Origin: a virus
Reading direction: 5' to 3' (one strand)
Length of the DNA stretch: 20,285 nt
Virus record (IMG/VR): IMGVR_UViG_3300031673_000606
Coordinates: 1 to 20,285 of that record
Positions 7,401 to 20,016 of this stretch are shown here, in pieces; position 1 is the first letter of the stretch; every line of letters begins with the position of its first letter. A program made the translations under genes and the position numbers. The notes under the pieces were generated by a model. It was not told where the DNA came from. It saw only the letters and a program-made list of their open reading frames with translations, and made no database searches.

Positions 7401-7457
7401 ACAAGGAAGGAATGGAAAATGAAACTATTTAAAAATAAATCATTCCTTCCTTGTTTT
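7401..7457 (+). terminator. Rho-independent terminator after the capsid genes
   Basis: A perfect 14-bp inverted repeat: ACAAGGAAGGAATG (7401-7414) and CATTCCTTCCTTGT (7441-7454), 26-nt AT-rich loop, followed by TTTT and an AT-rich stretch. It begins 8 bases after the stop of the decoration candidate. It would limit read-through from the highly expressed coat genes to the connector genes. Its loop is long for a terminator and holds a ribosome site-plus-ATG, see the mini-ORF. Confidence 0.75.
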
Positions 7458-7478
7458 ATATTGCGGAGGCATGTATGA
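7419..7478 (+). CDS. Mini-ORF inside the terminator loop, possible leader peptide
   Basis: ATG at 7419 in the hairpin loop, 19 codons (MKLFKNKSFLPCFILRRHV), TGA at 7476-7478 overlapping the next start (ATGA). The upstream arm of the hairpin (AAGGAAGG) doubles as its ribosome site, and its codons cover the whole downstream arm 7441-7454. A ribosome on it would open the terminator stem and deliver ribosomes to the connector gene. This could be a translation-controlled switch, or a chance ORF; length alone gives no proof. Confidence 0.35.
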   Translation: MKLFKNKSFLPCFILRRHV

Positions 7479-8050
7479 TACTGTCGGCAACCGAATGTAC
7501 AATCTATTCCAATATAAGCGCTTCTGCCGCAACAATAATAAGTAAAAATCTGATCCCGGTCGTGCAAGCACGAATCACCATGATGCTGAATAATTATTTT
7601 CTTACTGATCTGGACGTTACCGATACGATGACTTTCAATGCAACGGCCAGAACAATCATTGCTGAAGGGAATCCTTTCACAGATAAAAACTTCACGGCTT
7701 CGGATGATATTTATGTTTTCAATTCTTATCGCAATGATGGGTATTATACTATCGATTCCGTTTCGGATAAAACGTTGACATTGATAGCAGGTTCGGTTGT
7801 AAAAGATGAATTGTCTTCCAGGACAATAATAATATCGGTAGTAAATTGGCCGTTGGATGTAAAAGTTGCGGCTGCCAAGATGTGTGCATTTGATTATGAT
7901 ATTAGAGATAAAGTTGCAACTAATTTAAAATCAAGATCACTTGGGCCATTATCGGAATCGTATACCGATGGTGAAAAAGATGATTATGGCTATCCTAAAA
8001 AACTTACAAATGTTCTTATGGATAATTATTTTATAGGGCGGGTATACTGA
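7475..8050 (+). CDS. Head-tail connector (adaptor) protein
   Basis: A 191-residue protein when started at the ATG 7475, which has GGAGG (7465-7469) five bases upstream; an in-frame TTG at 7451 lies within the terminator T-run and is unlikely. The N-terminal half is beta-rich with a helix (VVQARITMMLNNYF) and the C-terminal half helical (LDVKVAAAKMCAFDYDIRDKVA), followed by LGPLSESY. This helix-plus-loop plan in front of a head-closure gene fits gp15/gp6-type adaptors that dock under the portal ring. Stop and next ATG overlap. Assigned by order and fold-like pattern. Confidence 0.68.
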   Translation: MILSATECTIYSNISASAATIISKNLIPVVQARITMMLNNYFLTDLDVTDTMTFNATARTIIAEGNPFTDKNFTASDDIYVFNSYRNDGYYTIDSVSDKTLTLIAGSVVKDELSSRTIIISVVNWPLDVKVAAAKMCAFDYDIRDKVATNLKSRSLGPLSESYTDGEKDDYGYPKKLTNVLMDNYFIGRVY

Positions 8051-17701: not shown

Positions 17702-18001
17702 ATGGAAATATCTATTATACAACAAATATTGGATTTGATAGCTAAATTAGGTATAAATCCTTTGATATTGTTGGCAATAGTTTTTATTGTTACCGGATTG
17801 AAAAAATTGGACAGTAAAAATAAATTCAAAGCCGGTTATGTGTTGTTCCCATTGATTGCTTCCATCATAGTAGTGACGGCGTTTGCTTTCGCTTCTAAAT
17901 CAATTGATATGGCAATACTTATAAGGGATTATTTAACCCACGCAGCTTTGGGCGCTTATGGATACAATATTTACAGTAAATTGATAAGGAAACCAAAATA
18001 A
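17702..18001 (+). CDS. Holin candidate
   Basis: A 99-residue membrane protein directly after the endolysin. Hydrophobic helices at about residues 18-34 (INPLILLAIVFIVTGL) and 46-66 (YVLFPLIASIIVVTAFAFA), and a weaker third at 72-92; the C-terminus is short and basic (KLIRKPK), as in holins. Excellent ribosome site (AAAAGGAGG). It would form membrane holes letting the M15 enzyme reach the wall. Holins vary too much to name the class. Confidence 0.75.
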   Translation: MEISIIQQILDLIAKLGINPLILLAIVFIVTGLKKLDSKNKFKAGYVLFPLIASIIVVTAFAFASKSIDMAILIRDYLTHAALGAYGYNIYSKLIRKPK

Positions 18002-18010
18002 GGAGAATAC

Positions 18011-18511
18011 ATGAAATGCGCAAATATTTTATTGCCACGTGTATATTCATTATTGTTTGTTTTACTATTGGGATTAGCAGTTATTTTGCCGGTAAAAGCG
18101 CAGGAATCAAATCTATTACCAACTTCATCGGAAACGGACATGCTGATATCGAAATTATCGAACTTAGACAAGAACGAAATTTTAAAACTTTTCTTCAACA
18201 CATTGGTCAACTTGAAAATAGCCGACGCACAGGAGCAATTGAATTGGGAAAACTTCAGGCAATCAATGGACGAATCATTCGAGAGCTTGACGATGCAAAT
18301 GCTAGACTCCAAGCATACAGTGATGCGGTTACAACTGCAATCAATAACCGACAAGAAAACTATAGAGTCCTTGAAGCAATCGGGAACGAATTTAAACGAC
18401 GATGGGAAACAGGCAATTAAGGAGGCAAAAACTTATAAATTTGTTTCCATTATTGAATTTGTTTTAATAATTATTTTAAGTGGTGGTTGGGTTTATTCAG
18501 CGATTTTTTAA
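18011..18511 (+). CDS. Lysis-cassette protein with signal peptide and C-terminal membrane helix
   Basis: A 166-residue protein. N-terminus: basic, then a leucine/valine-rich core and VKA before QE (residues 28-32), a plausible type I signal peptide. The middle (33-140) is polar and helical (DMLISKLSNLDKNEILKLF). The end (about 143-166, FVSIIEFVLIIILSGGWVYS) is a membrane helix. N-outside, C-anchored topology is like a unimolecular spanin, but no lipobox cysteine follows the signal peptide. Codon choice (TTA, TTG, ATA) resembles its neighbours. AGGAG (18001-18005) is five bases upstream. The first 410 bases are also read in another frame by the gene at 18016. Confidence 0.65.
   Translation: MKCANILLPRVYSLLFVLLLGLAVILPVKAQESNLLPTSSETDMLISKLSNLDKNEILKLFFNTLVNLKIADAQEQLNWENFRQSMDESFESLTMQMLDSKHTVMRLQLQSITDKKTIESLKQSGTNLNDDGKQAIKEAKTYKFVSIIEFVLIIILSGGWVYSAIF
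18016..18420 (+). CDS. Rz-like inner-membrane spanin candidate, nested in another frame
   Basis: A 134-residue protein wholly within 18011-18511 and in a different frame. It has an N-terminal membrane helix (about 4-24, FIATCIFIIVCFTIGISSYF), then a periplasmic helical part: IEIIELRQERNFKTFLQHIG and GKLQAINGRIIRELDDANAR, of the coiled-coil type seen in Rz proteins. Its ATG is 10 bases after the same AGGAG that serves the gene at 18011. It keeps an open frame for 134 codons in the alternative frame with a clear topogenic start, which makes chance less likely. Overlapping spanin genes are known (Rz/Rz1), but there the nested one is a lipoprotein; here neither is. Confidence 0.6.
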   Translation: MRKYFIATCIFIIVCFTIGISSYFAGKSAGIKSITNFIGNGHADIEIIELRQERNFKTFLQHIGQLENSRRTGAIELGKLQAINGRIIRELDDANARLQAYSDAVTTAINNRQENYRVLEAIGNEFKRRWETGN

Positions 18512-18524
18512 TTACTAATTAAAA
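18506..18524. repeat. AT-only perfect inverted repeat at the end of the late operon
   Basis: TTTTAATTA (18506-18514), C, TAATTAAAA (18516-18524): a 9-bp palindrome overlapping the stop codon of the last late gene. It could help termination in either direction or bind a protein; the lack of G/C pairs makes a strong terminator unlikely. Confidence 0.5.
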
Positions 18525-18549
18525 GCGCTCGAAAGCCCAATTCGTGTCA

Positions 18550-18714
18550 GCCTGCCCAAAACAGGGAATAGCGGGAGCCATGCCGTGCAAGTCGGCTATC
18601 GGGTGCCCTTATCAGGCGTTTGTGCTATTAAGATAAATGTGTGGCAGGGTTTTCCAGGTGAAACCGGGTAAAGTATACGTCAAAGGTCAAAACACGTCGT
18701 TTTGGCCTGTTTTA
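18550..18714 (+). ncRNA. Conserved structured RNA-like element, copy 2
   Basis: Gene-free stretch after the lysis genes. Positions 18620-18677 match copy 1 (4927-4984) at 51 of 58 positions. Upstream, GCCTG (18550-18554) pairs with CAGGC (18613-18617), CCC (18555-18557) with GGG (18601-18603), and GCCG-7 nt-CGGC (18582-18596) forms a hairpin. Downstream, GGTCAAAAC (18685-18693) pairs with GTTTTGGCC (18699-18707), followed by TGTTTT, a terminator-like end. GCAGG (18644-18648) can pair with CCTGT (18706-18710), the same closing stem as in copy 1 with different bases. The element ends where the convergent minus-strand gene stops (18712). Confidence 0.62.
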
Positions 18715-19062
18715 ATTTATACTGGTGAACGTAGTAATTTGTTTGAATTTATAATCTTTTGCCATGTTGGATATGATTTTTGCACAATGATTACAAAAAT
18801 AAATCCCGGTTTGATCGCAGCGCACTTTTACTTTATTCAGACAAGGGCGTGCTATGCTGGTTTTATGGTTATCTTGATTGTACCATCGTTCACAGCGGTG
18901 CGGGGGCAGTCTATATTTACTGTTAATATCAATAGTCCGACCATGAATTGATTTCCCTTTAATAAAATTATCCCAAGCTTTGTCAGTAAAAATCATTCCC
19001 ATATAATAATGCAATAAATTCTTTTTGCTGTAATAGTGATGATTATATATCAGCTTTTGCAT
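18712..19062 (-). CDS. Cysteine-rich protein of unknown function
   Basis: A 116-residue protein, last gene of the minus-strand operon. The first 50 residues are aromatic and basic (MQKLIYNHHYYSKKNLLHYY). Then cysteines C57, C74, C82, C90 and C93 (RPCLNKVKVRC, IYFCNHCAK) suggest a zinc site, comparable to small zinc fingers of HNH or regulatory proteins, but no HNH histidine pattern is convincing. It overlaps the preceding gene by 13 bases. Codon context and operon overlaps support it being real; function unknown. Confidence 0.6.
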   Translation of the reverse strand: MQKLIYNHHYYSKKNLLHYYMGMIFTDKAWDNFIKGKSIHGRTIDINSKYRLPPHRCERWYNQDNHKTSIARPCLNKVKVRCDQTGIYFCNHCAKIISNMAKDYKFKQITTFTSIN

Positions 19063-19325: not shown

Positions 19326-19489
19326 GCTTTTTCTGGAAGAATATAGCAGTCATCATAAATATTTTCTTTGTCTTTTAAATAAGTTTGCAATTTAGCCCAC
19401 GCTTCGTCTAAATCAACGGCTTCAATCCGTATGGATACTAATATACAATCACCGCGCAACAGTTTCCCGACATATAATTTATTGCTCAT
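19322..19489 (-). CDS. 55-residue protein of unknown function
   Basis: A short minus-strand gene filling the space between the transglycosylase and the 91-residue gene. It starts on a TAATG junction with the transglycosylase stop and ends on ATGA with the next start. Product begins MSNKLYVGKLLRGDCILVSI, continues with RIEAVDLDEAWAKLQTYLKD and ends YDDCYILPEKA: a strand-strand-helix layout with conserved-looking acidic and aromatic residues. The fit at both ends is the main support. No family recognised. Confidence 0.7.
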   Translation of the reverse strand: MSNKLYVGKLLRGDCILVSIRIEAVDLDEAWAKLQTYLKDKENIYDDCYILPEKA

Positions 19490-20016
19490 TATGTCAATTG
19501 ATTTCTTGTTGATATTTTCGTCCCGCGTTGTAATACACGGGCAACATACCAGGATTCGGCATTATTATTTTTCAATCCTGTACGCCCTTGATGATATGCC
19601 GCAATACTTAATGACCATGAATTATAATATTCATAATGATCCAATAAAATCAATGCCGCAATTCTGGCTGCTTCCCAAGGATCTGTCGCGTCATATTCAC
19701 CATATAAATCACTGCGCTCTTTATGAATGGATTTTGACTCATGCAATCCAAACATCCCTTTGTCAGTATTATTTATATGTTCAGGATTTTCTCTGTATGA
19801 TGATTCTGTATAGGCAATCCCGGCTAAAATTTCTGGTGAGATACCAATAGTAGCTGCCGTATATTTAATCATGAATTGATATTTAGTTGGAACATTTTTT
19901 ATGATTACAAGCGGTTCAAAGTAATTATGTGCTATAATATATTTTTCTATGTTTTCTCCGCTCCCGACAGAAAAAATATAAAAAAACATATATGATAAAA
20001 GCAATAATTTTTTCAT
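19489..20016 (-). CDS. Secreted lytic transglycosylase-like protein (SLT, lysozyme fold)
   Basis: A 175-residue protein with an N-terminal signal peptide (MKKLLLLSYMFFYIFSVGSG) and an SLT domain. GISPEILAGIAYTESSYREN contains the catalytic glutamate E71 in the E-S-S motif; TDKGMFGLHES is the G-x-x-G/Q-l motif; IAAYHQGRTG around 139-147 matches the A-Y-N-x-G motif with H-Q in place of N-A. It would cut glycan strands between MurNAc and GlcNAc. A signal peptide means it can be exported without a holin. It could act in lysis, entry, or local wall opening. It overlaps both neighbours. Confidence 0.82.
   Translation of the reverse strand: MKKLLLLSYMFFYIFSVGSGENIEKYIIAHNYFEPLVIIKNVPTKYQFMIKYTAATIGISPEILAGIAYTESSYRENPEHINNTDKGMFGLHESKSIHKERSDLYGEYDATDPWEAARIAALILLDHYEYYNSWSLSIAAYHQGRTGLKNNNAESWYVARVLQRGTKISTRNQLT

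Follow-up and report, generated by a model that had tools for sequence, protein, structure and literature searches.

Positions 18,011-18,511 of the IMG/VR virus fragment analyzed here (20,285 bases, hereafter the window) were found to encode two membrane proteins in different frames of the same DNA. Judged from position, topology and helix length, these probably form a dual-coded, co-initiated, spanin-like lysis pair acting at outer-membrane disruption. Both frames were open beyond chance in six phages, with phase, start spacing, topology and position conserved. The pair is best read as a new variant of spanin, and not as a member of the Rz/Rz1 or T1 gp11 types.

Portal, capsid and tail genes of the window were followed by an endolysin-like gene, a holin-like gene and the nested pair. 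A sequence-only reading had proposed two membrane-protein genes sharing one ribosome site at the spanin position, and the same arrangement was recovered: a single AGGAG with spacers of 5 nt to the ATG at 18011 and 10 nt to the ATG at 18016, two open frames with topogenic segments as described, and a location directly after the holin-like gene with the endolysin-like gene upstream. The stop of the preceding gene overlapped the AAGGAG ahead of the pair. The endolysin-like product shared 34% identity with a Rhodobacteraceae phage endolysin (E 5e-6). The 99-aa product had no family match in PHROG or Pfam and is called holin-like from its size, helices and position; the 109-aa protein had no confident family in the same databases. 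The hairpin and T-run downstream of the pair likely mark the end of the late operon, as read from the DNA, and the next genes of the window lay on the opposite strand.

Features of the lysis cassette and the nested pair in the window
Feature	Positions	Strand	Basis or remark
Protein, 109 aa, N-terminal membrane helix	16888..17217	+	Upstream of pair, same operon
Endolysin-like gene, 153 aa	17229..17690	+	Weak PHROG 2649 endolysin, E 0.0089
Holin-like protein, 99 aa, small, multi-helix membrane	17702..18001	+	Size and position
Shine-Dalgarno AGGAG, single, for both starts	18001..18005	+	Sequence
Outer frame, 166 aa: signal peptide, helical body, C-terminal membrane helix	18011..18511	+	ORF, sequence, model
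Outer signal peptide coding region, residues 1-30; also encodes inner membrane helix	18011..18100	+	
Inner frame (outer +2), 134 aa: N-terminal membrane helix, then long helix	18016..18420	+	ORF, sequence, model
Inner protein long helix, residues 50-132	18163..18411	+	AlphaFold2, pLDDT about 76-93 over residues 81-134
Outer-frame extension, 91 nt past inner stop; encodes C-terminal membrane helix	18421..18511	+	
Hairpin (GGTCAAAACacgtcGTTTTGGCC stem), then T-run	~18680..18715	+	Sequence

Three further features of this region were recorded. Positions 18512-18680, which separate the pair from the terminator-like hairpin, were non-coding with a G+C of ~48% (vs. ~35%); no Rfam match was found there, and folding compared with shuffles was not significant (z -1.1). 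Just past the lysis cassette and outside the late operon, 19489-20016 (minus) encoded a transglycosylase-like protein with an SLT domain (Pfam) and an N-terminal signal peptide, with counterparts, by sequence resemblance only, at L009 6809-7450 and L012 14002-14532 (minus). An antisense ORF nested at 17971-18354 (minus) was rejected as a gene, its open frame not being conserved.

The outer product carried a signal peptide with a signal peptidase I (SPase-I)-like site (PVKA/QES, slash at the predicted cleavage) and a hydrophobic C-terminus (residues about 139-166). It is probably anchored N-out/C-in. In the outer products of the window, L015 and L097 basic residues preceded the C-terminal helix instead of following it, contrary to the positive-inside rule prediction for that orientation. 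The inner product was hydrophobic over residues 1-27 with a helical body after, and is a type II inner-membrane protein of i-spanin-like topology. AlphaFold2 models of both were built from six-sequence alignments and are indicative only (mean pLDDT about 70). In the outer model, a signal helix (4-30) and a disordered linker preceded a continuous helix (79-165) entering the membrane segment; in the inner model, a membrane helix (2-38) and a disordered linker preceded a helix (50-132). These long helices, of 87 residues (outer) and 83 residues (inner), correspond to about 125-130 Angstrom at 1.5 Angstrom per residue. Helical hydrophobic periodicity was greater than in shuffles for four of the six inner bodies and three of the six outer ones (P < 0.05), and fold comparison of the pair products with viral structures was uninformative.

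Direct searches of either product against IMG/VR, and of the outer product against cultured phages, returned nothing, and PHROG and Pfam gave noise only for the window pair. Therefore, relatives were sought through neighboring structural genes. The capsid protein search led to L003 (84% identity), the same contig continuing as L009; tail-protein alignments led to L012, L013, L015, L096 and L097; and a capsid alignment led to L119, the downstream part of which is L177. With the window included, eight phages had checkable contigs (window, L009, L012, L013, L015, L096, L097 and L177). A nested pair stood after endolysin/holin-type genes in six (window, L009, L013, L015, L097, L177), that of L177 being found prospectively, in a locus fetched through capsid homology. 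L012 and L096, which have the same tail module, lacked a candidate for either pair gene at the cassette position, so phages of this group can do without the pair. Relatives keeping a single frame, the outcome that would have told against the sequence-only reading, were looked for: six phages kept both frames in the same phase, two had neither, and none of the eight kept just one.

A holin-like gene preceded the pair in all six phages, with a lipase gene (L009) or a 108-aa gene (L177) in between and elsewhere with the pair directly after it. Endolysin-type enzymes of the cassettes included Amidase_2 (L009) and Peptidase_M23 (L013). The intervening L009 gene (8001-8591, minus) was a class 3 lipase (PF01764, E 3.8e-10), which could attack outer-membrane lipids in lysis. 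Directly after the L009 pair, at 7440-7525 (minus), lay a tRNA-like 3' half, GGTTCGAATCC with GCCTTTT/AAAAGGC ends; ARAGORN made no call on it, and it is possibly a degenerate tRNA or an attachment site.

The anatomy of the pair was common to all six. The inner frame was the outer +2 and the start codons lay 2-8 nt apart, arranged as ATGAAATG (window), ATGCGATG (L015), ATGAATG (L009, inner first) or, in L013, L097 and L177, as [A/G]TGTG, with a GTG overlapping the other start. Extra upstream starts were present for the inner frame in L013 and L177 and for the outer frame in L097 (TTG). Each outer product had an N-terminal hydrophobic segment, a body low in Pro/Gly and a C-terminal membrane helix, the last encoded by a 70-112 nt extension lying 3' of the inner stop; each inner product had a single N-terminal membrane helix and a helical body. 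SPase-I-like sites of the six outer products were VKA/QES, VIS/QDA, LFC/QDF, SWA/QVE, TSA/QDR and LFS/QDA, and Gln stood directly after the predicted cleavage site in every one (background Gln 6%). BLAST found no similarity among the pair products of the family members, and tests against shuffled scores yielded no more than weak signals (Z 3.3 for the window-L177 outer products and Z 3.1 for the L015-L097 inner products). As similarity was at noise level apart from these two signals, the arrangement has persisted longer than the sequence. For five of the six pairs, family matches stayed at noise level; the L097 inner product weakly matched three Rz-like spanin PHROGs (E about 0.03), which may reflect mere coiled-coil composition.

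Dual coding of 18011-18511 is near certain. Chance openness was calculated by synonymous resampling, in which one protein was fixed and codons were drawn from the phage's own usage (20,000 trials for the window). The inner frame was open in 0 of 20,000 resamplings with the outer protein fixed, and the outer frame in 0 of 20,000 with the inner protein fixed. Values for one frame given the other were likewise 0 and 0 in L009 and L177, 5e-5 and 1e-4 in L097, 5.5e-4 and 3e-4 in L013, and 8.8e-3 and 7.5e-4 in L015, hence 0 to 0.9% across all six phages. The third forward frame held 15 stops in 134 codons in the window and 7-16 stops in each of the six pairs. Codon usage did not separate the two frames of the window pair. 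That one frame alone is a gene and the other a chance ORF is very improbable. Without regard to topology or start quality, co-start ORF pairs as long as this one are common (469 in 2.46 Mb), and the relatives are too distant for a direct test of synonymous constraint; against this, the low chance values recurred in each of six phages, where phase, topology and tail extension also agreed, and topology-constrained pairs elsewhere numbered 1 in 2.43 Mb. The scan behind this count covered 177 loci and returned the family members known then and one match outside the family, L060, an unrelated chance hit in a different phase and context.

To our knowledge, a lipid anchor is common to all recognised spanins. 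The lack of a lipobox in both products, noted in the sequence-only reading, was confirmed and extended to the sense strand around the pair: no sense-strand ORF of the cassettes of the eight phages carried one, and the search gave only two matches, both antisense and due to chance. The accompanying claim that the pair fits neither lambda Rz/Rz1 nor the T1 type also held, on the lipobox and on other membership features. As in lambda Rz/Rz1, the genes overlap in different frames after holin/endolysin genes (an adjacency that is itself a lambda-type criterion, the holin here being called by size and helices only), and one product, here the inner-frame one in all six pairs, has an N-terminal membrane anchor and long periplasmic helices. 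Unlike in lambda, the second product is not a lipoprotein with a lipobox, the secreted partner is the longer gene and not the embedded one, and both frames begin together; among known embedded pairs, about 70% have the o-spanin start at a relative position of 0.4-0.5 (Kongari 2018, PMC6139136). The pair also lacks a periplasmic cysteine, none being present in the 12 periplasmic cores of the six pairs, and this residue is nearly universal (about 96%) in lambda-type two-component spanins and missing in about 4% (Kongari 2018, PMC6139136).

With T1 gp11 the outer-frame product, in the window and in five relatives, shares an N-terminal export signal, a C-terminal membrane helix and the absence of a periplasmic cysteine. 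It differs in having a signal peptidase I-type site and not a lipobox, in being accompanied by a second, overlapping protein, and in its all-helical model (moderate confidence, six-sequence alignment), whereas the periplasmic domain of T1 gp11 is beta-rich. Because it lacks the lipoprotein that marks both two-component and unimolecular spanins, the pair was filed under neither, and it may work like a spanin despite this. A further likeness is to the lambda S105/S107 holin/antiholin, where two starts also lie a few bases apart at one ribosome site. In S105/S107 both starts are read in one frame, yielding two versions of a single protein; here the frames differ and the products are unrelated.

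In the proposed mechanism, the pair would be made late, together with the holin-like and endolysin-like gene products. The start signals are present in the DNA, and ribosomes at the single Shine-Dalgarno would choose between the two nearby starts, so that a single RNA would supply both proteins. The inner product would be anchored by its N-terminus in the inner membrane with its long helix in the periplasm, as an i-spanin, and the outer product would be exported through its cleavable signal peptide, leaving a long helix and a C-terminal membrane anchor. As coiled-coil-type proteins, the two would most likely come together in the periplasm and, when the endolysin has cleared the peptidoglycan, jointly break the outer membrane without an outer-membrane lipoprotein; that membrane would be engaged either by the outer product's free N-terminal portion or by its C-terminal tail inserted there. 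Translation of both frames, complex formation and outer-membrane disruption are thus what we infer for the pair. More specifically, and only tentatively, it may represent a lipid-free class of outer-membrane disruption, in which two oppositely inserted inner-membrane proteins (type II and type I) share nearly all of their coding DNA and are co-initiated at start codons that overlap.

Neither product has an evident outer-membrane anchor, and the model does not explain the route by which force would reach the outer membrane. This bears on the reading that both frames are translated but govern inner-membrane events (holin/antiholin-type timing, endolysin regulation) and not outer-membrane breakage. 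Inner-membrane signals in both products agree with such a role, as does the dual start, since lambda S, a known holin/antiholin device, likewise governs two related membrane proteins through dual starts at one ribosome site. It is nevertheless unlikely, given that a separate holin-like gene stands ahead of the pair in all six phages, that the long periplasmic helices are unlike small holins, and that the inner product has the topology of a classical i-spanin. Another way to meet the missing anchor is a two-component spanin whose outer-frame protein is fixed to the outer membrane through a hydrophobic C-terminal tail, or through a modification that escaped detection, and not by an N-terminal lipid. 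This would be topologically closer to lambda than the lipid-free inner-membrane model, the secreted partner completing a lambda-like arrangement, and the position of the hydrophobic segment at the extreme end, behind the basic residues seen in the window, L015 and L097, looks as if it escaped positive-inside sorting. We regard it as improbable, because alpha-helical tails normally remain in the inner membrane and a Cys at the outer cleavage site occurs only in L013 (PLFC), where it does not fit a lipobox.

Host hints were few. The capsid protein of the window belongs to a very widespread family and does not indicate a host. DUF261 (PF03196), a candidate lysis or peptidase-like enzyme of phages, occupied the endolysin position in L015 (11638-12120), L097 (12560-12970) and L096 (12483-12956, a phage without the pair). 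The L097 copy matched 43 plasmid records, 42 of them Borrelia/Borreliella, a sequence-level hint of spirochaete hosts; in two such plasmids inspected, DUF261 precedes a DNA adenine methylase. Gln after the cleavage site recalls the Bacteroidetes Q-rule (PMC5837995). As the exported transglycosylases of these phages lack the Gln pattern, the rule was not used for host assignment.

A lipobox is required for o-spanins and u-spanins in the survey of Kongari 2018 (PMC6139136), and candidates without the required TMR or lipobox were removed from a 2025 ISME J survey (PMC12596118); because these pipelines demand a lipobox, a lipobox-free pair escapes them. In the 2018 survey no spanin could be identified for about 13% of phages infecting Gram-negative hosts, and inner-membrane proteins of type I, with the TMD at the C-terminus, were suggested as possible spanins beyond the survey criteria (Kongari 2018, PMC6139136). 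The nested pair family is a concrete candidate for such a non-lipoprotein topology. It also offers a compact example of two unrelated proteins with full dual coding and co-initiation, in which the frame relation was retained after similarity was lost. If the proposal is true, some of the phages now called 'spanin-less' would lyse their hosts by a lipid-free type I/type II system.
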